Origin: Acarospora socialis
Lineage: Eukaryota > Ascomycota > Lecanoromycetes > Acarosporales > Acarosporaceae
Assembly (NCBI GenBank): GCA_025617375.2
Contig: JAMYGW020000008.1
Location: 1,798,001 to 1,862,000, forward strand
DNA: 64,000 bases
Direction: 5' to 3'
Within the stretch, counting starts at the first letter, position 1, and every line of letters starts with the position of its first letter. The notes beneath the pieces are model-generated. The model ran no database searches. It saw only the letters and a list, made by a program, of their open reading frames with translations, and was not told the origin of the DNA. The position numbers and the translations under genes are program-made. Positions 41,499-60,655 of the stretch are shown piece by piece.

Positions 41499-43229
41499 TT
41501 ATTCCTCCTCCATATACGAATCTTCCCCCTCCCCGTCCCCCTCACCCATATCCCCCTCCTCTTCATTCCCCTCCCCCAAATCAACCACAACCGCGCCCCG
41601 CTCCGTAACCGTCTGTGTCCCCACCAACTCCCCTCCCCCTCCACTCCCGCCGCCACCCCCTTGCATCGTCCCCGGCGCTAAACTCGCCATCCGCTCGGCC
41701 TTGACCCTCGGCGCCAGACTCCGGGCTCTGGTCGCTGCATTTCCGTCGTTCTCGCCATCATCGACGATTTCCTCGGCTCTCCGACTATCGTCGCGAGTCG
41801 TGCACCCGTCACCGTCGTGGTCGGACGAGTAGGTCGTTTCGTCGGCGGCGCGTGCTTCGGCGGCTTGGATGCGCGCGACTTTGCGCAGGAGGATGGGATC
41901 CGGGTGCAGGGTTGAGGGGGTCAGCATCTGTTTGTTTCGAGAGTCGTTTGTTAGAATCGGTAGGCTGCCTTGTGTGCTGGATGTGATGGGTCAGGTGAGG
42001 TGGAGAAGAGGTCCGGCGCGGTGCGTTGCGGAGGGACAGGTAGGTATAGAGGAAGGGTAAGAGAGGGGAGTGGGGAAGCAACGACGTACCATCTCGCAAA
42101 CCGGACACTTGACGGCCTTCTCGCCCGCGACGCGGCCCGCGCTCCGCGAAATCATGTCGAGGATAGCGGCCTTCTCGAAACTGTGCGGGCATTTGCTGCT
42201 GGTGACGGGGTCTTTGTAGGGCAGGAGGGTGAGCGGACATTTGATGCTTATGCGCTCGCTGGCGATGGCCAAATCGTCGTCTTCGTCGGCGTCGGCGTCG
42301 TTGGCGCGGGCTCGGGTGCGGGTGTTGCTGGATGGGTGGAGGGCCGGGTCGGTGGGGAACCAGGTTGACGGGTTGGGCAGCGGCGGCGCGTCGTCGCCCG
42401 GGTGCAGGGCGTCGTGCACGATGCGCTTGAAGCCGATGTAGGAGTTGTTGGTCGCGTAGCTGTACGTGGGAGCGAGAATCGAATCATTAGTTTTTCCGTC
42501 ACAGCGAATAGTATAAGGGTATTGAAGGGGGTTGATCTGCGACACGTACCGAGTCCGTAACGGCAGCCCATCATACCGCACCTTATGCTCCTCCATCTTC
42601 TTCCGCAGCAACTGCACCGGACCCACATTCTCCTGCCCCTCCTCATCCTGCGTCGCCGGCTCCTCTTCAAACTCGCTCCCCTCCTCCTCCTCCTGCTCAT
42701 CATCCTCTCCGCGTCTCCTCCTCTTCCTCCCCTGCCGAAACTGGCTCGCCCCAAGCGTACTCTGCGTCCCTGCCACGCCCACCACCCCACTCCCATTCCC
42801 CGCCACCACATTCGCCGCCACCTCGACCAACGCGCTCTCCGTCCCCTCGACCCGCGCCTTCGCATCAATCACCCTCCTCACGCTCTCCTCCATCCTGCCC
42901 GTCAACCCCTGCACTTCCTCTCGCATCTTCTCCAACTCCCTCACCCGCTCCTCCTCCGCGCCGCCGTCCTCGTCCTCGTGCCCCTGCCCCGCCCGTCGCG
43001 CTTTCCGTCGCCGCAGGTACTCCGCCCGCTGCCAGTAGCGGTCGTTGACTTCGCCGGCTAGTTCCGTTACGCTGTTGGTCGCCACCTCCAGATGCCGTTT
43101 CACCCGCGTCAAGGGGTGCGTTTGCGGGAGGGCTTGGAGCATGCGTTGCGCGGCGGGCGTGAGTGGGTGCGTGGGGGGTTCGTAGGGTGGGAGGGCGGTC
43201 GGAGCACGGGAGGGGCGCGGTGGTGCCAT
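41499..43229 (-). CDS. nse2: SUMO E3 ligase Nse2/Mms21 of the SMC5/6 complex
   Basis: Subunit of the Smc5/6 DNA-repair complex that attaches SUMO to partners. ATG at 43229. The N-terminal half is helical and charged (coiled-coil that binds Smc5 in the family) with a basic RKRRRRGEDD stretch and an acidic segment. An intron (about 42464-42551) joins LPLRTR to YATNNSYIGFKRIVHD. The SP-RING follows: ISIKCPLTLLPYKDPVTSSK, C-P-H-SFEKAAILDMI, and KCPVCEM, interrupted by an intron (about 41928-42090) before MLTPSTLHPDPILLRKVARI. A C-terminal acidic/glycine-rich extension of about 110 residues is longer than in yeast. About 490 residues. It is the last housekeeping gene before the accessory island. 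Confidence 0.9.
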
Positions 43230-43878
43230 GGTTTGAAGGCTATGCGTCTCGTTGTTGGGTGATGGTTCTTGCGAGGTTGGCGGTGAGGTGCCCTTGAGAT
43301 CACTCCGTAGAAGTTGTGGTACAAATGCGCGTGGAAGAATTCGGCGAGTCGAGAACGCGTTTAACGTGAGGCGCTAGCTCGATGAGGGAACGGGAACGGG
43401 CCAGTAAACTCCGTCAGTGATAGGAAGGACGTCCCATCGACGGCAGCGTATGAATTCACCGACAATGCAGTAATCGTAAGCAGCTACTTCTCGACAGATT
43501 TTTTTTTACCTATCTTATACAAAGCTTTTTATAGAGAAGCAACATGCTTGTCGAAGGCGATTTGCAAGGTTCTCCGCCACCTCACCACTTTGCTCCTTGA
43601 GGAGAGAACAGTATTTATTTACACAAATCCTCGTAACTGAGCTCAATCGTGTGTTTCTCTATGATCTTTGTATTCTGTCACACTTTTCTGGGTCTCAGGA
43701 GTTATTGTGGGGCGAGGCCTTGCTATGTTTTGGTCTCCTAGGTCTTAGGCGGAGGTCTTGAGGATGGCGGAGAATTTGTGAATCACTTCGTATGTGTACT
43801 CGTATCCGTGGCCGCTTATTTATGGCACGTCCTAGCATTTTTTCTACACCTTCGTATCACTTTTCAGTTACTTCCAAA
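43230..43878. other. Intergenic boundary between NSE2 and the metabolite island
   Basis: About 650 bp between divergent genes. It has an A/T-rich patch (43495-43535, with a run of nine T). It marks the left edge of the accessory island. No gene or repeat element recognised. Confidence 0.5.
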
Positions 43879-45694
43879 ATGCCAGCGCCCAGAATTCTGG
43901 AGCTAGCTGCGATTATTAGCACATCAACCGCCACGATCTACGACCTCTTAGCAGCCAAGAACCATCCTCTACCCTCCTTTGATGCAGACGCGCCGGGTTC
44001 TTTCCCAGAGGAGCTGGATGCAATGCGAAACGCGGTCCTCGACGCGACCTCAGAGCTCCACGACCTCTTGTTGGCGCCCGAAGATCTGATCCGCAAGCAC
44101 GCCCGAGTTCGTCCCACCAGGCCACGTTCTGAGATGAAACTAACGCTCGAACTCGGGAAAGCATGCCAATATCGTCAGCTTGCATGCCATACAGCGGTTC
44201 GATATCGCGTCAAGTTTTGGCCCAGGTGATCAAGTCTCGTTTGCGTATGTGGCGGACAAGTGCGGTCAGCCGGAAGCCAATATCCGTCGCATGCTCCGCC
44301 ATGCCATGACCATGAGGGTGTTTCGCGAGCCAGAGAAGGGTGTCGTCGCTCATACGGCGGCGTCACGCTTGCTGAGAAACAGACACATGGCTGACTGGCT
44401 GGGAGCTACTTGTGAGGACAGCGGGCCGGCGGCTCTGAGGGTGAGTTCGAGCTCAACTGTATACAAAGTGACCAAGGGCCAATTAAAGTCACTTGAACGA
44501 TCTACACTTTCTGGTGCTCGTTTTTCTTGTCATATTGAGCTTGTTCCGTTCTTAGTATGAGATTTCTAGAGCAAGGTGCAGCTCGGTAGGCTGTCTACAG
44601 CTCGAGCTGACCGACCGGCTCCGTCGCGAACACACTGCGTGAAGGAAAAGCTGATGGAACTGGCTGGCAGGCTGTTGATGCCATGTGCAAGTGGCCTCGC
44701 TCGCAGGAACCACACCACTCGGTATAGTCTCCCACGACATTCAGCCCACAAACAAGAATCGCGTGAACTCTTGGCTGACCGTGAGACAACACTGCAAGGG
44801 CATGGCTCTTGCGAACAACACCACAGACAACATGTACCAGATATTTGCGCGTTCACCTGCCCGTGCCGCCCGATTCTCCTCCGCTATGGTAGCCTGGGCG
44901 ACGGGCAAAGGCTTCGAGATGCGGCACCTTCTCGACAACTACGACTGGGCGGGCATCGGATCGGGCTTGGTGGTCGACGTCGGCGGTGCGCAAGGACACA
45001 TCAGCACCGAGCTCGCCCGGCTCCTCTCCTCTCCCACCTTCGTGGTGCAGGACCTCGACGACGTGGTGCAGAAAGGCGTCTCGGCGCTTCCACCGGAGTT
45101 GGAAGGGAGGGTGCGCTTCATGGCCCATGATTTCTTCACCACTCAGCCCGTCCGGGCCGATCTGTACTACTTTCGCTGGATCTTTCACAACTGGTCCGAT
45201 GACTACTGCCTTCGCATCCTGCGCGCTTTGATCCCCGCGCTGCGACCGGGGGTGAAGGTGCTGATTCACGACATCTGCATGCCCGAGCCGGGGACGGTTC
45301 CGCATTGGAAGGCACAGCTGTTAGGGTCAGTGGTAGCCCCATGGCTCTGCCCTCGCCATGTTGAAATATCTAACATAGCATTTTCGATGGCGCTGCTAAC
45401 GTTTCCCATTCTTTCAGATCTCTCGACATCGGCATGCTGGGCATGTTGAATGCGCGCGAGCGCTATTTGGACGAATGGCAGAGCCTGCTGCAGCAAGCAG
45501 ATACGAGGCTCAAATTCCTCGGGGCCAAGACGCCACCTGGATCGAATTTGGCGCTCATCGAAGCTTGCTGGGAAGGTGAGTGATGGGTGCATCTTCTTAG
45601 AGCGTTGTACACAACCATATGTATCTCTTATGATGGCTTCGAACAATTGATTGGTCAGTGGAGCTCTGCCTCTCTCTTTGCAGCGACGAACTAA
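43879..45694 (+). CDS. SAM-dependent O-methyltransferase (Methyltransf_2 type)
   Basis: Class I small-molecule O-methyltransferase. ATG at 43879 (MPAPRILELAAIISTST). Exons fit as 43879-44106, 44162-44440, 44671-44721, 44799-45325 and from 45418. This joins LIRKHAR to HANIVSLHAIQRFD, GPAALR to AVDAMCKWPRSQEP, and HHS to GMALANNTTDNMYQIF. The winged-helix dimerisation part is followed by the SAM loop VVDVGGAQGHIS, DLYYFRWIFHNWSDD (the histidine of HNWSDD is the usual general base) and WKAQLLGSLDIGML. The end is either WEGE with stop at 45583, or, using a perfect GTGAGT donor at 45576 and a CTTTGCAG acceptor, WEATN with stop at 45694. It is convergent with the NRPS-like gene and probably methylates its product. 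About 430 residues. Confidence 0.85.
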
Positions 45695-45833
45695 GCCCAA
45701 CTACGTGAATACTGTTACTTTTGCTCGCAACGTATCTACTAAGGTGTACATCCAGCAGAAGCAACCTGCAGGAATCTGAAAAAAAGAGACAAACAAATAG
45801 CCGATGATATGTGGATAAAGCAATGGCACGAGA

Positions 45834-48731
45834 TCAAATACCCCTCTCATCCAAGACAGCCTGCAGCTTGCCGTAAAACGACCTGACGTGAGCATTATCC
45901 AACATTTTCACATGGTGACCACCGCACTCGTGGAAGCTCGGCGCGGATCTCGAGAAGTCCGCCCAGAGCGTCAAATGGTCGCGCAACCACGTCTCTTTAC
46001 TCATACACACCATTGCCAACGGCGTACAATAAAACACATCCGCCTTGCGTACCGTGCCGCGCGGACCATACTCTTTGGCCGCGTCGCCAAACGCGTTTGT
46101 GACGGTCGCGATGCGCAACAGCTGCGCGGCGTCTAAACTCAGCGCCTCGCGCTGGGACGGTCGGGCGATGCGTAGGAGGTGCGCCACGATGTCCTCGTGC
46201 GACGAGTCTTTGACGGTAGGTATCGTCGTGCGGACGCTCTCTTCCGCGATCAGGTCGAGGAAGAAGGAGACCAGGACGGCGCCGGTGGCCCAGTCGAGGG
46301 GTCGGACGATGGATGCCGGATGCGGCGGCGAGTCGATGGCCGCGAGCAGGGCGACCTCGTTCCCGTCGGCTTCGAGCAGCTTGGCCACCTCGAACCCGAC
46401 CGTCGTGCCGAGCGAGTAGCCCGCAATGGCGTACGGGCCCTGCGGCTGCACGCGCTTGACATGTGTGTAGTATGTTTCGGCCGTGTCTGCGATGCTGTCG
46501 AAGGGCTCCTCGCCGGGGTTCAAACCCCTGGCACGCATGGCGTATACCGGCCTGTCGGTGAAGCATCGTGCTAGCGGCAAGAAGCAAAAGACGTTGCCTG
46601 CGGCCGGATGCATTAGCCACAGAGGCGTTTTGGTGCCTTGTCTTCGTAGCGGAACCACGGGGTTGTATTGTTGCCGGCCATGGTTGTCGATCACCCGAGC
46701 CACGTCCCGAATGACCGGGTTGCTTAAGAGATCGAGTACTGAAAGGGATTGTTGTAGGGCGAAGACCTTATTGACATGCTCCAACAGCTCAATGAGAGTG
46801 ATGGACGTTATGCCCAGACTGAACATGTCATCATCCATGCCAAACTCATCCGGTGACAATTCGAGAGTATCGCATAGTAGCTTCAACACCGTTTCTTCCG
46901 TCTGCGTCCTGGGGCTCTGTCGGCGTTGGCTGCGGTAGGATTTGATGATGCGGGTGTTTTCAACCTCGATGTCTCGGTACGATCCTCGCTCGAACTCCTT
47001 TTGGATTTTCGCTCTTGACAGCTTTCCCAACGACGATCTCCAGAGCTGCGACTTCGGGAGCGGGATGATGCGGTACGGCTTAGTCCCGGTGACGGTGCTG
47101 GCGACCATTACGATCAAGTCAGCCGTCTCTGATCTTGCCTTGGCATCTTCGAGGTCAAACGTAGGGTGATAGGCAACGCAGAACCCTTCCGTCTGCGCTC
47201 CTGGCGGGCGATAAGGGAAGGACGCGACGTAAGAAAGTTCGATGCCGGGAATGTGACTTGCAGCCAGAGCGTTCTCGATGTCTTGAGGGAAATGTTTGAC
47301 ACCATTGATGACGATCATCTCCTTTGTTCGACCGGCGATGTTGTACTTCCCGTAGGAGTCTACGTATGCCCTATCGCCGGTCGTGAACCAGCCATCATCC
47401 GTGAAAACCGCTCTGGTGGCATTGGGATCGTTGTAATAGCTTTTGAAAACAACGGGGCCGGTCATTTGAAGATTTCCCACTTCATATGCGTTTGCTACAA
47501 GTCCTGCATCTGTCATTACTCGCATTCGAGCACCAGGTATAGGATTTCCTATCGACGAAAACTCGTGCCCCTCGGCCAATTCATATGAAGGACAAAAGAG
47601 ATGGTAGGTAGCTGCAGCACAAGATTCGGTCAAGCCGTATCCCGGGGCGATGATATCTCTTGTTACACAACAAACGGACAGTCGTCTTGTTAGATTGATC
47701 GCAGTTTGCACTACATTGGCTTCTCCACCGGATAAAATCGACCTCAGGCATGACAGGTCGAGGTTCAGGTTATTTGTAGGAGATTCTTTAGCTGCTAGCT
47801 TTCTTTCGAGTAGGTCAAGAAAGAAGTTGGGTGCAAAGGTTCGCGAGACACGGTGCAGATCAATTGACCGCAAGAAAAGCAGCGGATCAGCAAGAAGGTC
47901 TGCGGCTTGGATGTGAATCTGTTCTGCCCCCAATGATATGGCATGTAGATGGATTTCGAGGAGGTTTGCGACGTGGTCGAAGCCGATCCAGTTGAAGAAA
48001 ATGTCATGGCTTGTTGTTCCATACGCCTTGCTTTTACCTCGGACTGAGGCCCAGATCTGGGTATTGGTCAGGCACACGGCTTTGGCGTTCCCGGTGCTCC
48101 CAGACGTAAGCATGAGAACCGCCAGATTATCATGTCTCGTGTGGACCTGGCGACGCGGAACCTGAGCAGCGTGACATGGTTTGATGAAGTGCTCGACCGA
48201 GTGAATTTTGAGTTGATCAAGACCTAGAAACTGCCCCACGAGTCGCTCACTGGTCAAGATCACCGGGTCATGTAACAGCTTGTACAGATGAAGCAGATGT
48301 GCTTGACGTTGAACAACATCAACTGCTAAAGGAGTCGAAATGGCCGGTAGAAACCCTGCTGCTAAAACAGCCCAGAACCATTCAATGTTGTCCTTATGGT
48401 TGTCGAAGTGTATCAACACAACGCAGTCAGTTGACAAGCCCTCCACTTGGGTCAAGAGTCGAGCCTTGGCCTCTGCTCTATCCAAGAGAATTTTATAAGA
48501 GATATGAGCAACGTCACCCGAGGCCTGTCCCGCTGATTGTATAGATATGCCGGTGTGTCTTGTAGCTGCCGCCTGAAGCATCTGCAGTAAAGTTCCACTC
48601 TCATCTTCACCCTTTCCTTCGCCTCGAACATCGCGTCCTGAGTAGGACAGAGAGGAGTCGTCAAAACTGCCAGAAATGGTCAACATGTTTGACGGGTGTA
48701 ATTCGGCTTCGATCCCCAGTACGCTTCGCAT
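45834..48731 (-). CDS. NRPS-like synthetase, A-T-TE (aryl-oxo-acid dimerising type)
   Basis: Cytosolic multidomain enzyme in a single exon. First in-frame ATG is 48731 (965 residues); the frame stays open a little upstream, so a short 5' exon is possible. The adenylation domain (about 40-575) shows VLMLTSGSTGNAKAV, FFNWIGFDHVANLLEI, PGYGLTES, TGDRAYVDSYGKYNIAGRTK and the catalytic-lysine region SSLGKLSRAKIQ. The thiolation domain has FSLGITSITLIELL with the carrier serine at about 643. The thioesterase (about 703-965) has GPYAIAGYSLG (serine about 773), AAIDSPPH and CGGHHVKMLDNAHV (histidine). There is no condensation or reductase domain. This is the layout of atromentin, terrequinone (TdiA), microperfuranone (MicA) and butyrolactone synthetases, which activate arylpyruvates and dimerise them on the TE. 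Product not predictable. Confidence 0.9.
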   Translation of the reverse strand: MRSVLGIEAELHPSNMLTISGSFDDSSLSYSGRDVRGEGKGEDESGTLLQMLQAAATRHTGISIQSAGQASGDVAHISYKILLDRAEAKARLLTQVEGLSTDCVVLIHFDNHKDNIEWFWAVLAAGFLPAISTPLAVDVVQRQAHLLHLYKLLHDPVILTSERLVGQFLGLDQLKIHSVEHFIKPCHAAQVPRRQVHTRHDNLAVLMLTSGSTGNAKAVCLTNTQIWASVRGKSKAYGTTSHDIFFNWIGFDHVANLLEIHLHAISLGAEQIHIQAADLLADPLLFLRSIDLHRVSRTFAPNFFLDLLERKLAAKESPTNNLNLDLSCLRSILSGGEANVVQTAINLTRRLSVCCVTRDIIAPGYGLTESCAAATYHLFCPSYELAEGHEFSSIGNPIPGARMRVMTDAGLVANAYEVGNLQMTGPVVFKSYYNDPNATRAVFTDDGWFTTGDRAYVDSYGKYNIAGRTKEMIVINGVKHFPQDIENALAASHIPGIELSYVASFPYRPPGAQTEGFCVAYHPTFDLEDAKARSETADLIVMVASTVTGTKPYRIIPLPKSQLWRSSLGKLSRAKIQKEFERGSYRDIEVENTRIIKSYRSQRRQSPRTQTEETVLKLLCDTLELSPDEFGMDDDMFSLGITSITLIELLEHVNKVFALQQSLSVLDLLSNPVIRDVARVIDNHGRQQYNPVVPLRRQGTKTPLWLMHPAAGNVFCFLPLARCFTDRPVYAMRARGLNPGEEPFDSIADTAETYYTHVKRVQPQGPYAIAGYSLGTTVGFEVAKLLEADGNEVALLAAIDSPPHPASIVRPLDWATGAVLVSFFLDLIAEESVRTTIPTVKDSSHEDIVAHLLRIARPSQREALSLDAAQLLRIATVTNAFGDAAKEYGPRGTVRKADVFYCTPLAMVCMSKETWLRDHLTLWADFSRSAPSFHECGGHHVKMLDNAHVRSFYGKLQAVLDERGI

Positions 48732-49972
48732 GAGATCGAGACTCAATGCTGACGATCCTAGTGCGCTGGAAAGGAGAACATTAATAGAAGTTTGTATGAA
48801 GGCTCACTGAATGTTTGAAGTTTACAGGCATTCACTGTGGCGGTAATAGCGCCGTGCGGTCACATTGCATCTCCGCAGAGACGCAGTTGACGCGGCCCAC
48901 TCGTTGCGTTTGATGGCCATGCTGCAAAGAAATCATTTCACTTTAGACTGCATCAAGAAAAGACGACACACATCAATACCCGCCTCCAGGGCAGGAGCCG
49001 AATACAACCAGGCGGCCGAAAGACACCATACCATAGCACCACACACATATGAAAGGCGGAACGAATCCAGTCAGTGTGTAGAAGGATAGGAAGGGCACAC
49101 CAAGGGCTATGACACAGCGGAGTGGCCCTCAGGTCACCTGAGTTAACCCAGATGCCCCACAAACAAGGCCGTAACCACGGTTGTAGGAGTACTGCCGACT
49201 GGATGCTACCCTGACTATCTGAAGCCCCAGAGTTCAAGACTCAGACTCGCCGGCAGGCCGTATTCAGGGTCAAGCATAGAAGGTGTAGCCAGTAGCCAGG
49301 TATCTGTATGCTGTATGGGGCCCTAATCACCTAACTACCTTAGGAAATTAGATGTTTGATGCTTACTTCATGCGCGGATTGGTTTGCCTAAGCCTAGAGA
49401 GACCTACCTACTCTACTCCGTCGCAAGAATGAATGTCAATGTCACTGCCAACTACCTATAGGAAGGGATCTGTAGAATCGAAGACAATCCAGACCGTGTA
49501 CTGTCATCTCTCCATGTTCTGGAAACCAAGCAATTTGAAGAGCCAATGCGGCAGCTGATGGGTGCATCAGCCTACTGCGAAATACTACACGATGCCAATC
49601 ATACGATACTGATTGACCACCCACAGCTAAACAATTCAGATTACCTCATACCTACTTTGGAGGAAAACAGCCGAAGACATTGTTTCAGAGAGCACATCTC
49701 TGACACTGTTGGCGTCAGGAAGTTCGAAAATACATTCACACAATATATAGAGAAGCATGGCTTCGGATACCATGATCCAAGATTTGAATCAATCGTTGAG
49801 TTTCAACTTCAATTTGCATACTCTTCTTCGTGAGACCTTCCTATTGCAGCAAGAATTCGAATTGCGTGACACAAGCGGTCTGGCAGCCATGCTACCTTTC
49901 ACCCAACAACTCAGCCTCGCTTTCCCCCTCCTTACCCATCTTTTACTCGGATCACTCTATCCATCATCCACC
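48732..49972. promoter_or_regulatory. Divergent promoter region of the NRPS-like and AusD-type genes
   Basis: About 1.24 kb between the divergent starts of the two core biosynthetic genes, so it probably carries shared control elements. TAGG/CCTA strings occur at 49325-49345 and 49398-49412, and an ATATATAG string at 49744. No separate gene was accepted; frames here are short. Confidence 0.45.
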
Positions 49973-50874
49973 ATGGCTGCTATTGATCCGAATGCGGGCC
50001 AAGCAAGGCCGCCATGGTATACGGAGCAGATCACGAGCATTCCAGAGAACGCGCGGCAGTTGCTCGAGCAGTACAGCCATATCCCTCCCGCTCAAGTGAT
50101 CCCATACGTAACAGAGCTAGTGGGTTGCTTCCTTTTGCCTACGTTTTGGTCTATGGGGCAAAATCTGCTTACACGCCTCCTGTAAAGCGCGATAGGGCAT
50201 TTAACATCTTCCCCTACCCATGTATCGGGCAACTGCGATTCCTCAACCTCAATCTCGCCTCCCAGCCCGGTTACGGCATCGTTGTGAAGCGTCTCAAGGG
50301 CGGCCAAAAGCTTCTGGATGTCGGTTGTTGCTTCGGGCAAGACATCCGGAAGCTCGTTGTGGACGGCGTGCCGGCCGAGAACGTCTACGGTCTGGATGTG
50401 GAGCGTCGTTTCATCGACTTGGGATATGAGCTGTTCCGCGACCGCAAGACCCTCACCTCCAAGTTCGTCGTGGCGGATGTCTCGGACCCAAGGTCGGATC
50501 TCGGCGAACTGGAGGGCAAGATGGACATTTTCTTTCTGTCGTCGTTCCTGCATCTGTGGAATTGGAAGGATCAGGTCAAGGTTCTACGACGGCTGATCTC
50601 ACTCGCCGAGGACAGGAAGGGAACGCTCTTTCTTGGCCGCCAACTCGGAACAACGGTTTCCGGCGAGTTCCCGCTCCAAAGTCCGACTCAGCTTAGTTAT
50701 CGTCATAATGTGGAGTCGTTTGACCGGCTCTGGAAACAAGTCGGTCAAGAAACGGGCACGCGTTGGCATGTGGAAGCTTCCCTGTACATGGCTCCCGAGG
50801 TCTCCGGAAATCGAGGCCAGAGCTGGGCTGATCCGAACATGCGCATGCTTCAATTCAGTGTTGTCCGAGAATAG
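49973..50874 (+). CDS. AusD-type SAM methyltransferase
   Basis: Small methyltransferase of about 278 residues, of the family first known from meroterpenoid clusters (AusD, TrtF and relatives). ATG at 49973 (MAAIDPNAGQARPPWYTEQI). One intron at about 50121-50186 joins YVTEL to RDRAFNIFPYPCIGQLRFLN. The SAM loop is LLDVGCCFGQDIRKLV, followed by NVYGLDVERRFIDLGYELF, DIFFLSSFLHLWNW and LFLGRQLGTTVSGEFP. The C-terminal SYRHNVESFDRLWKQVGQET and MRMLQFSVVRE also fit the family. In AusD-like enzymes it methylates a carboxyl or hydroxyl group. Here it neighbours an NRPS-like synthetase and no polyketide synthase or terpene cyclase is in sight. It is convergent with the membrane protein, 69 bp apart. 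Confidence 0.88.
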
Positions 50875-50943
50875 AGCTCACTTGCGTAATGAACGGAGCC
50901 AAGTACTATCTATCATGATGACCTAAATGGATGATTGGGTGGT

Positions 50944-52460
50944 TCACTTGCTGCCGTCTCCATTCCGCAGCCTATCTGAGTTCCAGTGAAGACCGGTCTC
51001 CACCCTGATCTGACCCGTAGGCATTTCCGGTTGCCCAACATAAGTGCCAGCGGATTCAATGGTCGTAAGGTCCCTGTTCTGCAGGTTGACTTCGCTGTCC
51101 CCTTGCCCTTCAGAGGGGCTGTGTTGGTCATTCAGTCGTATCCCTCGACTGCCTGAGTAGCTTTTCGACCGGGAAGGCCGGGTACGTAGTTGTTTGATCA
51201 CCAAGCCGATGTGAGAAGCAATGATGGGTATGCAGGCACACAATATGGCGACACATTGCTCAGCACTGGTCCACGCAAGGAAATTCGCGATACCCCCTTA
51301 AAGAGCATTAACATTAGCCGGGTCTTGCAAGTCAATAGCTACAGAGGACAGATTACGTACAGGTCGGATCCCGGTTGACATCTGTGTTGAAAACAACTAT
51401 GATTCGGACCAGCGCACAGATACAAGCACTGTGTTCAGCCATTAGTCGATTGACACGAATCGTCCATGTTGGCGGCTCACAAAGTCCCAAAGGAGAAGAT
51501 GATGATCAACCCAATCCTCCTGCGTTTGGAGATTTGCAGACGCGCGAGAGCGGCCAGCGGCAAGGCCAGGATCGCGATATCAGATATCAAGCTCGTGATC
51601 AACGGACCAGATACCTGCTGCACCTGGTTGGGGCATTCTCCGCTGAGGCGAAACGGTGGCTTGACTTTCGTGGCCACATACCATCGGTTCCAGTAGTAAT
51701 CGATCGGGTGGCACTGAAAGATGTAGAAGAAGATTGAGCCTATCGACCACAGCACGGCATAGACCACATTGGCCCACCACGCTACCTTCAGCCACGTCTG
51801 GCCGACGATGAAGAGTCGGCGATAGAGAAATAGGAGCGAAAGCTTGACGCATACGAGACATGCGCAGGTCAAGATCGCCGAGGCCCAAACAGCCTATCAC
51901 GCAGTCATTAGCATTTTTCCTCATCGCGAGTGACGGTAGACTCATTCACCTTGAAAATAACAATAAGCTTCCCAGGAAGGTTAGGATCATCTGCTATAAC
52001 CCTATAAATGTGCAGACCGAGACCGTTATGGACGCCTGAGATATGTTATATATGGGATCTTGGAAGAAGATATAACTGCAAGCTTCCTTCACGATGGAGG
52101 TTGCCGCTCAACACGACTCTGATTTTCGGAAAGCATTGTTGTTTTAAGGATAGGGATCTTCGCAACGACGGATGCAAGAAAGGTACTGTAACATACTCAA
52201 CAAATAGCCAACGATGATGCCATCCGCGCATGCCTGCGAAAGAATGAGTTCTCATTTCTGGTTGTGGAACGTAAAGGCAGACATACAGTTGCGAGGATAA
52301 GCAAGTAATCCTCGATTTTGAGGCTCAAGTGTTTGAATTGTAAGATGGTCCGCGCAAGAACAGCGCCATTGTTCACAAGAAGCAATATCACGAACCCGGC
52401 AACAAGCGAAGGTTGCTTCGAGTCGTTGAAATGGGCCAATTGATCCGGCGTTAGGGCCAT
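50944..52460 (-). CDS. Rhodopsin-like seven-helix integral membrane protein
   Basis: Fungal rhodopsin-domain membrane protein of the PTH11-related group that is often annotated in metabolite clusters. ATG at 52460 (MALTPDQLAHFNDSKQPSLV) with an extracellular short N-terminus and first helix GFVILLLVNNGAVLA. Several short introns: the exons read ACADGIIVGYLLS, VHNGLGLHIYRVIADDPNLP, AVWASAILTCACLVCVKLSL with LLFLYRRLF, then NVVYAVLWSIGSIFFYIFQC with HPIDYYW, and ITSLISDIAILALPLAALAR. The last exons (ACICALVRIIVVFNTD; WTSAEQCVAILCACIPIIAS) complete about seven helices, followed by a polar cytoplasmic tail, stop at 50944-50946. About 390 residues. Its ligand and role are unknown; cluster membership is only suggested by position. 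Confidence 0.8.
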
Positions 52461-53927
52461 TGCTTGAAGGATGAGCGAATGGGGACACAACAGCGGCTTT
52501 GAGCAAATGATAACAATGCCAAATAAACGGAAGGGTTTCTGAGAGGATTCTCGTCGTTCTCGTAGACTACCTTGACAGGACGTGGGAGGGGGTCACATTT
52601 ACAGCATGGAACGGCATGAACACGCACATGGTAGGCCGGTGGCTCGAGCAAGATCTTTGGCTGGCTGCGGAGCGGATAGCAAACAGCTTCTGTCGGTGAT
52701 GGCTGCAATAGCGAACGCTGATAAGGTGGGCAGGCAAGGTCATCCGTTATTTGAGACGAGGACGGAGCCACATACGCTTTTTCAACTTCCACCTCCTCCC
52801 GATGTGTAGCATTCGTAACGCATGGAGATCCTTGGAGCGGGACTCGATTGAAATGATTGATGTATGCACGCATGCACCTCTGCCATCTACCGACGAGAAT
52901 GTCATGCTTCCCAAGACCATTCCTTGAACTGTTTGCTGATCGTTCCCACCTTCTATGACACATCTACCTGTGCCGTCAGCTAGATCGCAAGCATCGGCAA
53001 GCAGCTTCCAAAAGTTTGCTAAGTTCGACACCTTATAGATACCTTATGTTGTCGTCTGTACACAGTGTGGGGGGTTAATCTCGTTGGCGTGCCACTAATG
53101 CATGAAAGGCTTGGCAGTGCTTGGTTTGCTGCTCCTAATAACAGATTGGGTGAGCAACTTTATCTCTCTCAGAGATCTTTCAAACTCAAGATAAACAGCA
53201 CTGCCAAAACGCCATGCAGTAAAGTAGCGGACCGCCAACGTATTGTAACTTACCCTTTCACACTGTGTACTCCTCTAAAACATGTACAGGGCTTGTCCAT
53301 ATAAGGTAGTAGGACTGCCCTCTTAAGGTCTGCATTCACACCACATATGCGACCATACTGCATCAGAATCTCTCAAATACATTCATATTGTACAAGCTTT
53401 GACATGGATCGACGTGTGTTTCTCTGTCACAAGCCTCGGTTCTCTTGCTGTTATCATGATTACTGGATTTTATTGAATTCGACTGATGTAATTGGTACTC
53501 TTTGTGTGCCCGTTCCTGTGGTCCATCAATTTCATCAGGTTCCACGCTGCGCTCACTAAATATGAAGATCAGGTCAATCACCTCTGAGTTTATACCCGTT
53601 TGGGATAAAAATGTGTAAAAGACCGCTGAAGTCAGAACAGAGATGCTGTCAATGCAGCATATCGGGTTCTCTAGACTCAGGCGGTCCAATAGATGTCACA
53701 AATACGAGCAAGAGCCCTGCTGAGTTCCACCAGCATCTGGTCGGTGATGTCACACACGATGATTGAGGCACAAACTGTTCTATTTTCAGCTTAACACCAT
53801 CTTGCAGCCTTATGGCGAAGAATAGGTGAATCTCCAATGTATAAATCCGGGTCTCTCACCTTAATTCTCGAAGACTTCCGAGAGACACAACTGGAGCCCT
53901 TGTCATCATCCCCGTCGGCTCCGAACC
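52461..53927. other. Intergenic region within the island
   Basis: About 1.5 kb between divergent genes (membrane protein and SnoaL-like). Short frames on both strands have no recognisable domains. A TATA-like site for the SnoaL-like gene lies at 53840-53846. Nothing else seen. Confidence 0.5.
53840..53846 (+). promoter_or_regulatory. TATA-like box of the SnoaL-like gene
   Basis: TATAAAT, 82 bp upstream of the ATG at 53928, a plausible distance for a fungal core promoter with a short leader. Based on sequence match only. Confidence 0.4.
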
Positions 53928-54554
53928 ATGCATTTTCCGCTCCTGCTCGTCCTCTGGCTCCAGTTTACCACCCTGGGCCTCGCCACCCCGGACCCCTCCC
54001 GCCATCGAGCATCCGACATCGTCGAGATCAACCAGACCATCAACCTCTTCGCCGTCCTGGTCGACACGTCCCAATACGACCAGCTAGGCCGGGTCTTTAC
54101 CCCAGACGCCACCGTCAACTTCAACCTCCCCAACGGCTCGATCCTGCACGGCCTCTCGGCAATCACGAAGCTGCTCTCGGGCCTGGCGAACGTCAGCGGC
54201 CAGCACGACATCACCACCCAATATGTCGACCTCCTCGGCCCGAGCACCGCCAATGCGACGACGTATTTCGTCGGGAACTTCTTCGGCGTGAAGGCGCAAG
54301 CCGGGCAGATTTTTACCGAATATGGAAAGTCAGTCGTCGGAGATTTCTTGTACGGGTTTTGCTGTGTGCTGATTGCAGGGAAGGTATGAGACTGAGATGG
54401 TCTTGACGCGAGATGGCTGGAGGGTGGACTATTTGACGTTGATAACCGTTGTATGTCAAGTTGTCAGCATGCTGCAAGTGCGCACGGCTGACCGTCTGTC
54501 TAGGCACAGTTTGGAAATCTCTCCATCGTGTTTCCCAATGGGCCTGGGAGCTGA
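53928..54554 (+). CDS. Secreted SnoaL-like (NTF2-fold) protein
   Basis: Small protein of about 170 residues. ATG at 53928 starts a signal peptide (MHFPLLLVLWLQFTTLGLA, likely cleaved after GLA or nearby). The mature part matches the NTF2/SnoaL fold: ASDIVEINQTINLFAVLVDT, QLGRVFTPDATVNFNLPNG, HDITTQYVDLLG. Two introns: the first (GTCAGT donor near 54329) joins FTEYGK to YETEMVLTRDGWRVDYLTL, the second leads to FGNLSIVFPNGPGS and stop at 54552-54554. Such folds serve as cyclases, dehydratases or isomerases, including scytalone dehydratase, but many are of unknown function. A secreted copy next to biosynthetic genes might act on a pathway intermediate; this is inference. Confidence 0.8.
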
Positions 54555-55673
54555 GGGGGTTTCGTGGTATGAGTAGCGCGTACAGTGTACAGCCGATCCA
54601 TCCATACATATGATGTTTAAAAGCTGTGGTGAAGTGTCGTTGGATGTACATAGACCGGAACGGCGCCGTCGAAGAGCGTGGCATTGATGGATGGCATAGG
54701 AAAAGCTTCTAGACATAGAAACAATTAGCTGGGCTGGAAGTCAAGTTGTATGCTTGCCCTCAAAGAGCAGAAAACTGACGGGTCTTGGTCAACACTTGAC
54801 GCTGCGGCATTGTTAGGTAGTGAGCTACACCTCCTTACTCGAGGGTACCACCACGTACCACGCCGCTTTTCCTCCTCCTACTCTTCCTCCTCTTCCCTCC
54901 CACCCACACCTCCACATACCACCCCCTTTCCCACCCATCCACTCCCTCACTCACTCACCGCACCCCTCTCAATTCCCAGCCCCCCACCAACATCCACCCT
55001 CTCTCACCCGCTCAGCCTTGCCCGTGCATTTCCACACGCTTACATACATACTTACACACCTCAGCTCTGCTCTGCTCCGCTTTGCTTTCTTTTTCAAACT
55101 TTGGAAGGAAGGAAGGAAGGAGGCGGCCGGTTGCTGGTTTCCGAGCTTCCGGCTCTACGGAACGCGGCCCGGGGGATTGAGGGCGGCGTGTGTGTGTCTA
55201 TGTGTGTTGGTGTGGCGGTTGAGATGGCGGTGGGCGGGTTTGGAGTGGTGGAGGGTGAGAGGGAGGTTGGATTGGGGGATGACGATGGCTCGTTGGGTTT
55301 GTTGGCTGTGAATTGGGGAGGGGGGTTGTAAGCTGCAGGACGGGTGTGTGTTGGGGGATTTACTGCTATAAGTGGGCATGTCGTGGATGGCTTCGGTGGT
55401 GGTGGGTTGGATCAGAACGGTACTTTATGGCCTATATAAGGTGTAGGTTTAGGGCTATAGTTGTCAGTTGAAAGTCACGTCGCTACACATAGTCTTTTAT
55501 TCAAGTATATGCTCTCAGTCATGGCCCGTTCAATGCTCTCCGTACATGGTACCTATCGTAGCGACCGTCAACTAGGAAATCCCCCATAACTCACAACATG
55601 TTCGCATGCACCCAAGAAAATGGCGGCCCAAGAACAGGAAGCACACATATACAGTTCCCCTTCAACCGGACGA
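54555..55673. other. Intergenic region with strand-asymmetric low-complexity tract
   Basis: About 1.1 kb between convergent genes. From about 54870 to 55080 the plus strand is almost all C/T with some A (CTCCTCCTACTCTTCCTCC and similar); from about 55095 to 55335 it turns G/T/A-rich (GGAAGGAAGGAAGGAGG, then GTGTGTGTCTATGTGTG). A 193-codon frame over it (54750-55331) is compositional and was rejected as a gene. Confidence 0.6.
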
Positions 55674-57748
55674 TCACGAGTAATTGTCGCCCTTGACAGC
55701 CCTCTTCTGGTCCGAAGCGACCGCCGACTCGAAATGGTAGAGCGGTTCACACTTGGTGTTCTTACGCTGCAGCACCCACCGCTTGAACCAATATGGAAGC
55801 GCCTTGGTGAGTTGATAGTGCATGTGCGTGCGGGTCGGAACGGCAAAGATATAGTCGAGCTCCTCGAGGGTCCGTTGCTTCGTCTCCGGCACCCAGAAGA
55901 AGATCATGACGAAGGCGGCGACGTTAAGGAATGCGTAGAAGCCGAAGGCGCCTTGCGGTGTGAACGCCGCCAGCATCTTCGGGAAGGTGATGGACAGGGT
56001 CGCGGCCCAGAAGAGGCAGGTCGCCACCGCCCAGCTCATGCCGACCTCCCGGTGCGATAACGGGAATACCTCGGCAGAGTACGTGAATGGTACGGGGCCT
56101 TCGCCGGGAGAGTAGAAGGCCGCGAAGAGGAAGACGAATAAGGCGATAAGGCCGAGGTGAGCACGACTGGATTCGGGGATCCAGAAGCAGAAGCCGGCTG
56201 CGAGTAGCGTCCATGCCATGTTGGGGAACGTGAAGAGGAGTAGCGTTCGGCGTCCGTAGGTGTCAATGGTCCATACCGCGGGCCAAGCAAACACAAAATT
56301 GACGAGACCAAAACCCCAGGAAGCGAGGAGAGCCTCTAGATTGCTCGCACCGGCTTCCTTGAACACGGTCGATGAGTAGAATGCGATGATGTTGATGCCG
56401 CACATCTGCTGAGCGATCATGACCGTCCACGAGGCGAGCGTTGCGCGGCGCACCCGGGGAATGGTGAAGAGTTCAATAAACCGGGAGATATAAGTGCCTT
56501 GTCCGATGACGACGGCCTCCTCGATGACTTGGGCGTGGATATAGTAAAGATCCCGAGCTGCCTGTAGGGGCGTGCTTCGTAGGCGACACAGGGATTTGTA
56601 CGCCTTTTGATACCGATTCTTCTTGATATACCAACGGGGTGATTCTGCACCAAGTCAGTCTCGGAGTAACCGTTCAACGAAGACATGAAGACTTACCTGG
56701 ACAGAGGTACACTCCAAGAACCAAGGGCACCGCCGGGATGAAGGCAGACCCCAGCTGCAGACGCCATGCGATATCACCGACGTTGTAGACGGCCAGGTTG
56801 GCACAAAAGCCGAGGAAGATGCCAAAGGCGGTCCACATCTGCCAAGTCATCACCAACCCACCACGGATGGAGGCCGGGCAGTTTTCGGCGGCGTAGATGG
56901 GGACCACCGACGCCTTACAGCCCATGCCCACACCTAGGAGCAGACGTGTCACGAAGAGTTGCTGCCACGTCTGGGAGCATGCGGAGCCGATGACGGAGAG
57001 GAGACAGAAGATGGCCGAGACGAAAATGGTGCCTCGACGGCCGAAGTAGTGGTTCAGCGGGTCCGAACACCAGCAACCGAAGAAAGCCGACGCGATATAA
57101 GGCGCCGCATTGATCAAACCGACGAGCCAATTGTCACGCTCCTGATTCGGAGCTCCGGGCGTTTCGCCGTTGCCGATCCCGAATGCAGCCGGGAAAGAGA
57201 GATTGGCCCCGTTGGAACCGGTCTGATCCCAACCCTGCACCGCCGCACCGATGGAGCACAGGATGACGGTAAAGTACAGGGACTTTGGCTGCCGCCACTT
57301 GTGCAAGAACTCGTTGCGGAGCGCATTGCGCTCCACGTCGTCGAGCTCTCCGATCGACTCGAACGCCGGCGGGTCTTGGGCGACGAGGGCGCCCTTTTTC
57401 ATCAACGGGATGATGTCGACCATGTCCACCTCCCGCGCAAACTCCTCGACATTGCGCAAAAGCGTTTCGCGAGGGATACCCGCCAATGGGTTTTGAATCC
57501 TGCAGGAATGAGGTCAGCAGCAGCACACGACAGAAGTGAAGTTCATTGGGTACCGACTTGGCGGTCGTGTTGCGGTTCAAATTGACCGACTCCGACCTGC
57601 CCTTCTCCATGCCGGCCATTTGATTGTAGCTGTCCGGTCTAAAGACGATGAGGTCAGTTTTCGGCGTAACTTCCGACAGCAGATGTCAGATGGAGACGAA
57701 CCCATGGTTCTCGACCAAGAAGGCCTCATCTTTACCGGTGGCAGCCAT
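55674..57748 (-). CDS. MFS sugar porter family transporter
   Basis: Plasma-membrane sugar or polyol transporter with 12 helices, about 620 residues. The ATG at 57748 ([16 protein letters not shown]) splices with an unusual GTTCGT donor to [20 protein letters not shown] and again (GTCGGT donor) to [16 protein letters not shown], a long cytoplasmic N-terminus typical of one fungal subfamily. Family marks: [54 protein letters not shown], then after an intron (about 56643-56694) [48 protein letters not shown] and [19 protein letters not shown]. Stop at 55674-55676. It may import sugars unrelated to the cluster; export of the metabolite is less typical of this family. Confidence 0.9.
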
Positions 57749-59692: not shown

Positions 59693-60655
59693 CTACGCAG
59701 TTTTCTTCCACACTCCCCACACTCCAATCAGACTGCTCACCGTGCCCGCAAGGCCGACGATGCCGTCGTCGAGGTTGGCGTAGCCCAGCGCAGCAGTCGG
59801 TACCGTCAGATCGCAGAGGTCCGATATAAGTTGCAAGTTCGTAGCCGTGCGCTCTCTACGTATCACATCTCGTCAACACTCCCATCCAGCACGACATACT
59901 CCCTCTAGAAAAGAAACGGGTACTCATACCGCTCGAGCTTCTTGCTCTCCACCACCCCCTCGCCATCCTTCCGATCCACCGACTGCGCCTTCTGTCGCAG
60001 CTGATACAGCGTATACACGCCCGCCACCGTATTGAACAGCAGCCCCACAAACCACGCCTTGTACGCCTCCCGCTGCAACCGTTTCGCCGCCGCCGACGGC
60101 CGGATCCCCGCCGCATCGAGCTATCACCGTAAACAACCCTATCAGCGCCCAAACTCTCCTTCCCATCCCCTTCCAACCTCGGAGACACCCACATAAGTAA
60201 CCGTATCCAGCGTCAAATAAGTCGCGTACCCCAACTGCCTCCCGACGGCACAGTACTTCAGCACCGGATCCATGCCCTTGCTATCGGCCGCCACGGCCGC
60301 CGCCTTGAGATGCTCCACGTTCTTTCCGACGCGCAACAGTTTCCGCGAGAAGCCGAAATGCTTCTTCATCGCTTCGAAGGGCGCGATCGCGCGTGCAGGG
60401 TGGTTCGTCCGGAACAGGTACCAGGCGTAGAAGCGCGAGAAGTATTGGAGCGTTCGGAGGACCTTGTCCCGCCCGACTGTGGGGCGACTGTCAGTTTTCG
60501 TAGCTGCTTGAGAAGAGGGGCAACGCAGGGTGGAGGGACGTGATGGGAATAGGGATGGGGATGGGGAAGGGGGGGGGGAAGGGCTTGCCTGTTAACGCGA
60601 CGAATTTGAGGTAGTGGGCCACCGTTGGGTGGTAGACTAGAGCGTCTGCTACCAT
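59693..60655 (-). CDS. pex11: Peroxisomal membrane protein Pex11
   Basis: Peroxisome-membrane remodelling protein that drives elongation and division. ATG at 60655 (MVADALVYHPTVAHYLKFVA). Exon 1 is 67 bp and ends LT plus one base; the only donor that keeps frame is GC (GCAAGC at 60588-60583), with a CAG acceptor, giving ALTVGRDKVLRTLQYFSRFY. Then FGFSRKLLRVGKNVEHLKAA, the best conserved block of the family. A second intron (about 60122-60192) leads to LDAAGIRPSAAAKRL and the amphipathic YKAWFVGLLFNTVAGVYTLY. A third (GTATGA donor) leads to NLQLISDLCDLTVPTAALGY and NLDDGIVGLAGTVSSLIGVW, stop at 59693-59695. About 240 residues, the usual length. Confidence 0.9.
60477..60588 (-). other. GC-AG intron of PEX11
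   Basis: 112-bp first intron of PEX11. Donor is GCAAGC after ACAG, acceptor CCCCACAG. It is the only join found that links ALT to VGRDKVLRTL in phase. The plus strand of this intron carries a G-run series at 60552-60583. Confidence 0.7.

Follow-up and report, generated by a model that had tools for sequence, protein, structure and literature searches.

Clusters built on synthetases with adenylation (A), thiolation (T) and thioesterase (TE) domains, a nonribosomal peptide synthetase-like (NRPS-like) type, have been described in several fungi, and we summarize them here as they appear in excerpts of the cited papers. The ric cluster of Hypoxylon rickii (rickenyls) combines an A-T-TE with two O-methyltransferases and an oxidoreductase, the aminotransferase not being nearby, and most clusters similar to it carry several O-methyltransferase copies (PMC8403587). 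The cor cluster of Terana caerulea (corticins) holds the polyporic acid synthetase CorA and three putative O-methyltransferases, with no backbone-oxidising gene nearby (PMC9603100). In Allantophomopsis lycopodina, the alf cluster leads to allantofuranone with an A-T-TE, a dehydrogenase, an O-methyltransferase and a dioxygenase (PMC12105029); the butyrolactone I genes of Aspergillus terreus are btyA, a methyltransferase and a prenyltransferase (PMC12387979); and the acyN cluster of Ascocoryne sarcoides consists of an A-T-TE, a transcription factor and a DAHP synthase (PMC9047271). Here we analyse a locus of this kind in Acarospora socialis, within a stretch of 64,000 nucleotides of contig JAMYGW020000008.1 (C8:1798001-1862000, hereafter the window), where an A-T-TE gene lies between a PF00891 O-methyltransferase gene (OMT) and a gene for a second S-adenosylmethionine (SAM) methyltransferase (MT).

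We conclude that OMT, A-T-TE and MT, at 43879-50874 of the window (Table 1), are probably the core of a compact biosynthetic cluster that makes a methylated dimer of an aromatic 2-oxo acid, with phenylpyruvate as the most likely building block. Like the ric cluster, the window combines an A-T-TE with two methyltransferases and has no aminotransferase nearby; compared by description, ric differs in its NADP-dependent oxidoreductase RicF, which was not found in the window, and in that RicA is predicted to use 4-hydroxyphenylpyruvate. The cor cluster resembles the window in an A-T-TE that adjoins methyltransferases and in the lack of a backbone-oxidising gene nearby, and likewise in two frames without clear homology; it differs in its three putative O-methyltransferases and its basidiomycete host. 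The alf cluster shares the A-T-TE and an O-methyltransferase (AlfD), but adds a DAHP synthase, a ring-cleavage dioxygenase, a dehydrogenase and a transcription factor, none of which was found in the window. The butyrolactone I genes share the A-T-TE and a SAM methyltransferase, but include a prenyltransferase, and the excerpt mentions no PF00891 O-methyltransferase. Unlike the window, the three co-expressed genes of the acyN cluster include no methyltransferase.

A sequence-only reading of the window had suggested an undescribed combination of genes. This may stand for the exact gene set of the island between NSE2 and PEX11, for which a literature search confined to one library found no described cluster, but not for its biosynthetic part, as ric (PMC8403587) and cor (PMC9603100) already combine an A-T-TE with two or three methyltransferases and lack an aminotransferase. 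Since these two are described, the window cluster belongs to a known kind, and it looks like an unstudied example of the well-known A-T-TE type of pigment and metabolite cluster. The missing aminotransferase is ordinary.

The window synthetase is encoded in one uninterrupted frame with matches to AMP-binding (1.1e-33, residues 72-433), PP-binding (2.2e-10, residues 614-681) and Thioesterase (4.8e-23, residues 703-950), and no condensation or reductase family occurs among its seven Pfam matches up to E 1. Residues were read from an alignment of five A-T-TEs (the window enzyme, two from the same genome and two bacterial), in which TSGSTG, K570, S643 of the T domain and the TE triad S773-D800-H940 are kept; K570 and S643 we take to be the late A-domain lysine and the T-domain serine, and the triad presumably supplies the nucleophile, acid and histidine of the TE. 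By domain order and core motifs, the predicted enzyme is of the non-reducing NRPS-like (A-T-TE) type. The best of the top 60 of 107 PDB sequences at E <=1e-8 is the McyG protein 4r0m (7.3e-75), followed by the adenylation-domain proteins 6ulw and 6ulx and then by a thioesterase-side match, with CoA ligases and luciferases well below. Among the NCBIfam matches listed there is none over cut-off for the A-T-TE, and none for MT. The motif alignment places V254 at code position 1 and Leu333 at position 5, in GrsA numbering. Val at position 1 is described as a mark of alpha-keto acid activators, and at position 5 enzymes for phenylpyruvate carry Ile or Val, those for 4-hydroxyphenylpyruvate Asn (PMC10316625). 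With Leu at position 5 we therefore lean toward phenylpyruvate, and go no further.

The pairing of an A-T-TE with MT recurs elsewhere in the genome, which comprises 31.1 Mb in 38 contigs and reads as fungal. A tblastn search with the window A-T-TE gave 21 matches, including two further A-T-TE genes, one on contig C5 (described below) and one at C1:24071-26839 that is 46.4% identical to the window enzyme over 964 aligned positions (A domain 51.5%, TE 44.4%) and has Ile at code position 5. The neighbours of the latter include a methyltransferase (Methyltransf_25, 2.2e-7) and, each matched on two pieces, a P450 (1.8e-6, 1.3e-10) and a DAHP synthase (1.2e-45, 2.3e-25). The window MT, for which one of six open splice options was picked by the fit of the joined protein to its relatives, also matches Methyltransf_25 (9.7e-8) as well as Methyltransf_11 (4.1e-6), both over cut-off and both generic families, where the sequence-only reading had labelled it AusD-type; its search against the PDB gave no match better than E 0.047. 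Its best match in the genome is the methyltransferase beside the C1 A-T-TE (44%, 237 bits), ahead of one with 38% (160 bits) and others with 35% and 32-37%, and the window MT is the best match in return (221 bits vs 170 for the next). MT and A-T-TE are divergent at both loci, with the DAHP synthase sitting between them on C1. The chance that at least two of the three A-T-TEs have an MT-family gene within 5 kb is about 8e-6, assuming uniform placement of at least five MT-family loci over 31.1 Mb, and with the 5-kb distance set only once the data had been seen. If a single duplication gave rise to both pairs they are not independent, but the pair was then kept together. The C1 pair lies beyond the window and could not have been visible from the window alone.

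The C1 cluster (C1:17001-36800), with its P450, methyltransferase, DAHP synthase and A-T-TE, is located about 24 kb from the contig start. Four loci of the DAHP synthase family occur in the genome, one of them beside the C1 A-T-TE; an adjoining DAHP synthase is shared by the C1 paralogue and acyN, while the window locus has none.

In the pathway that we propose, general cellular aminotransferases would supply the substrate, an aromatic 2-oxo acid for which phenylpyruvate is the likeliest candidate; the butyrolactone I synthetase, for comparison, takes 4-hydroxyphenylpyruvate. The A domain would convert the 2-oxo acid to the acyl-AMP, which would then be held as a thioester on the T domain, and the TE (through its S-D-H triad) would fuse two units into one of the known rings of the class, a quinone, furanone, butyrolactone or dioxolanone. 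The two methyltransferases, presumably co-expressed with the synthetase, would then cap acidic oxygens, be it an enol, a quinone hydroxyl, a carboxylate or a phenol. The hydroxyls of 2,5-dihydroxyquinones, the enols of tetronic acids and the carboxylates of butyrolactones and dioxolanones are acidic oxygens that such methyltransferases could cap. An A-T-TE is paired with one or more methyltransferases in the ric, cor, alf and butyrolactone genes (PMC8403587, PMC9603100, PMC12105029, PMC12387979). The earlier suggestion that the A-T-TE and its methyltransferases fit an O-methylated aryl-2-oxo-acid dimer finds support in the domains, the motifs, the Val at code position 1 and the paralogous pair, all read from sequence. 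If correct, this would be an unassigned and very small A-T-TE pathway, for which reconstruction in a host like Aspergillus oryzae would be easy.

Several observations weigh against this reading. The reverse match of the C1 methyltransferase is nearly tied in identity (44% for the window MT, 43% for the next), the gap appearing only in bits. The structure models were unusable, with a mean pLDDT (predicted local distance difference test) of 43.0 for the A-T-TE with two bacterial relatives and 43.2 for MT exon 2 alone. Leu333, while aliphatic and not Asn, falls outside the published Ile/Val set, and residue swaps indicate that position 5 adds to substrate choice as a contributory rather than a strict or decisive determinant (PMC10316625). 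It is conceivable, but in our view very unlikely, that the A-T-TE activates a substrate other than an aryl-2-oxo acid, for example a phenylpropanoid, and that the TE releases a product beyond the usual dimers that is then methylated. Besides Leu333, the rank of McyG as the closest PDB relative and a TE acid that is Asp in the window enzyme and Asn in the C1 paralogue point in this direction. It is opposed by the Val at code position 1 and by a 2025 paper, the excerpt of which states that non-reducing NRPS-like enzymes acting beyond aromatic alpha-keto acids were never reported (PMC12105029).

The place of OMT in the core is also weighed down by its paralogy. The protein matches PF00891 with 88.6 bits against a cut-off of 22.3 and contains VVDVGGAQGH and FHNWSDDYC, which we take to be the SAM motif and the site of the catalytic His; the closest of 55 PDB sequences are the OMT-fold chains 7bqj (2e-43) and 7bqo (2.9e-41). 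Its closest paralogue in the genome (61%) is found at C7:947179-947844, away from the A-T-TEs and beside a thiolase gene and a tyrosinase gene, and the genome-wide family search (17 PF00891 matches, counted as 16 loci) gave no match beside the C1 or C5 A-T-TE. The tie of OMT to the cluster therefore rests on proximity and precedent. These findings would agree with a functional link between A-T-TE and MT only, OMT being a chance neighbour from another pathway, which we consider unlikely. By chance, a PF00891 gene would fall within 5 kb with a probability of about 0.5% at a given A-T-TE, or of 1.5% when all three are considered; we count this coincidence among the points against a three-gene core, and its low value for a given A-T-TE also speaks against a chance neighbour. 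So does the presence of O-methyltransferases in described A-T-TE clusters (AlfD, RicB/RicC and CorB-D), their Pfam family being unstated in the excerpts (PMC12105029, PMC8403587, PMC9603100). The C7 paralogue also has a DUF346-repeat protein as a neighbour, and its tyrosinase gene matches Tyrosinase_C.

The sequence-only reading had further treated all six genes of the 14-kb island as one cluster, a claim that is supported for OMT, A-T-TE and MT but not for the rhodopsin-like and sugar-porter genes, the SnoaL-like gene standing in between. Fung_rhodopsin (PF20684) has 105 matches in the genome, merged to 72 loci, so that 0.03 loci are expected per 14 kb by chance, and the sugar-porter family gave 159 first-look candidates, 9 of which were scored. 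As both families are large, these two neighbours say little about membership, which is not supported. The SnoaL_4 family has only three loci in the whole genome, the island gene being the best match, and about 0.001 are expected per 14-kb stretch by our own arithmetic, chosen post hoc. Because a gene of so small a family lies 3 kb past MT, the cluster may extend beyond the core as drawn here, which is a further point against that core.

In a larger cluster, one that adds the SnoaL-like gene to the core or spans the whole six-gene island through to the sugar porter, the SnoaL-like protein would shape or bind the product, the porter would move the product or a precursor, and the rhodopsin-like protein would act as a sensor; we regard this as rather unlikely, if somewhat less so than the readings above. 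The confinement of all six genes between NSE2 and PEX11 is consistent with it, as is the character of the surroundings, where six of nine further frames outside the island have over-cut-off matches to families with core cellular roles (ATG13, BUD22, phosphorylase, RCC1/BTB, mitochondrial carrier and mRNA cap methyltransferase) and the other three have no match over cut-off. At the C1 locus, some 8.6 kb beyond the A-T-TE, a weak SnoaL_2-like frame (L022:8573-9085; E 0.0056, 17.7 bits against a threshold of 27) also points this way, but it has no similarity to the island SnoaL-like protein (BLASTP E 0.60). Moreover, the C1 locus (17-37 kb) is without a Fung_rhodopsin locus, no sugar porter was found among the 12 frames scanned there (A-T-TE included), and the apparent signal peptide and NxS/T motifs of the SnoaL-like protein would be odd for a cytosolic step. 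We keep to OMT, A-T-TE and MT as the supported core.

The Pfam scan of the window frames bore out the six genes and their named domains between NSE2 and PEX11 (Table 1), and OMT, A-T-TE and MT are all intact, without a break in any of them. The lack of a prenyltransferase, aminotransferase, oxidase or regulator in the island, as had been noted from the sequence, holds for the Pfam-scanned frames, which do not include every small frame. The location of apvA of A. terreus among conserved essential genes resembles that of the window island (PMC5523082, excerpt). The GC content of the A-T-TE (54.0%), the MT exon (56.1%), the OMT exon (61.7%), NSE2 (64.6%) and the window (52.7%) does not clearly point to a foreign origin. 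The OMT model was built by hand from splice sites, a GC-donor first intron being replaced by a GT-donor intron. In the divergent region upstream of MT, a 123-aa frame on the forward strand (49462-49833) has no Pfam match to E 0.1; the idea of a remnant DAHP-synthase gene in the interval from A-T-TE to MT was rejected, as the site is absent from the four DAHP-synthase loci of the genome and the frame there is without a family.

Table 1. Genes of the island and its flanks, in positions of the window
Feature	Position	Strand	Model and matches
PF00891 O-methyltransferase (OMT)	43879..45583	+	416 aa; Methyltransf_2 4.9e-25; exons 43879-44106, 44162-44440, 44671-44721, 44799-45325, 45418-45583
A-T-TE NRPS-like synthetase	45837..48731	-	965 aa, intronless; AMP-binding, PP-binding, Thioesterase
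Divergent intergenic region, A-T-TE start codon to MT start codon	48732..49972	.	1.24 kb, from gene models
Second SAM methyltransferase (MT)	49973..50874	+	277 aa; exons 49973-50119, 50188-50874
Fungal-rhodopsin-domain membrane protein	50944..52460	-	multi-exon, partial model; PF20684 3.2e-25 on exon 51477-51893
SnoaL-like protein, apparent signal peptide	53928..54560	+	SnoaL_4 2.8e-11
MFS sugar porter	55674..57748	-	Sugar_tr 1.9e-52 and 4.9e-32 on two main exons
NSE2, flanking gene (open frame)	41991..43373	-	zf-Nse 3.7e-20
PEX11, flanking gene (one exon frame)	60142..60591	-	PEX11 3.8e-36

The third A-T-TE of the genome (C5:1729779-1732850), whose frame pieces were joined by hand, is divergent, with 33.2% identity to the window enzyme; its code position 1 is Ser, and the nucleophile of its TE is a Cys (GYCLG). 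Near it are a BAHD acyltransferase, an FSH1 hydrolase, a ketopantoate-reductase-like protein and a fungal transcription factor. One genome thus holds three TE triads, S-D-H in the window, S-N-H on C1 and C-D-H on C5. According to works cited in PMC8403587, as excerpted, the ring formed is set by the TE triad, and these three enzymes offer a natural series in which this could be tested. As MT-type enzymes accompany A-T-TEs with two different triads, the methylation site of MT may be a feature common to different cores. We speculate, while holding it unlikely, that A-T-TE and MT in head-to-head order form an old module that recurs, MT acting on a feature common to different TE products, and that a core or substrate outside the reported set could belong to the window enzyme, with its Leu at position 5, or to the C5 enzyme.

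Relatives of the window A-T-TE also occur in bacteria. A scan of bacterial and archaeal genomes with two peptide patterns matched 79 stretches, three of which were confirmed, in Streptomyces fumanus (34%), Steroidobacter agaridevorans (35%) and Scopulibacillus (26%, partial and not used further). In S. agaridevorans (L041:6702-10376) the TE is short, its alignment becoming difficult past the acid residue, and the next frame reads, by eye, like a short-chain dehydrogenase. The A-T-TE gene of S. fumanus (L042:6938-10691) lies directly 3' of a gene for a SAM methyltransferase of another named family, TIGR00027.

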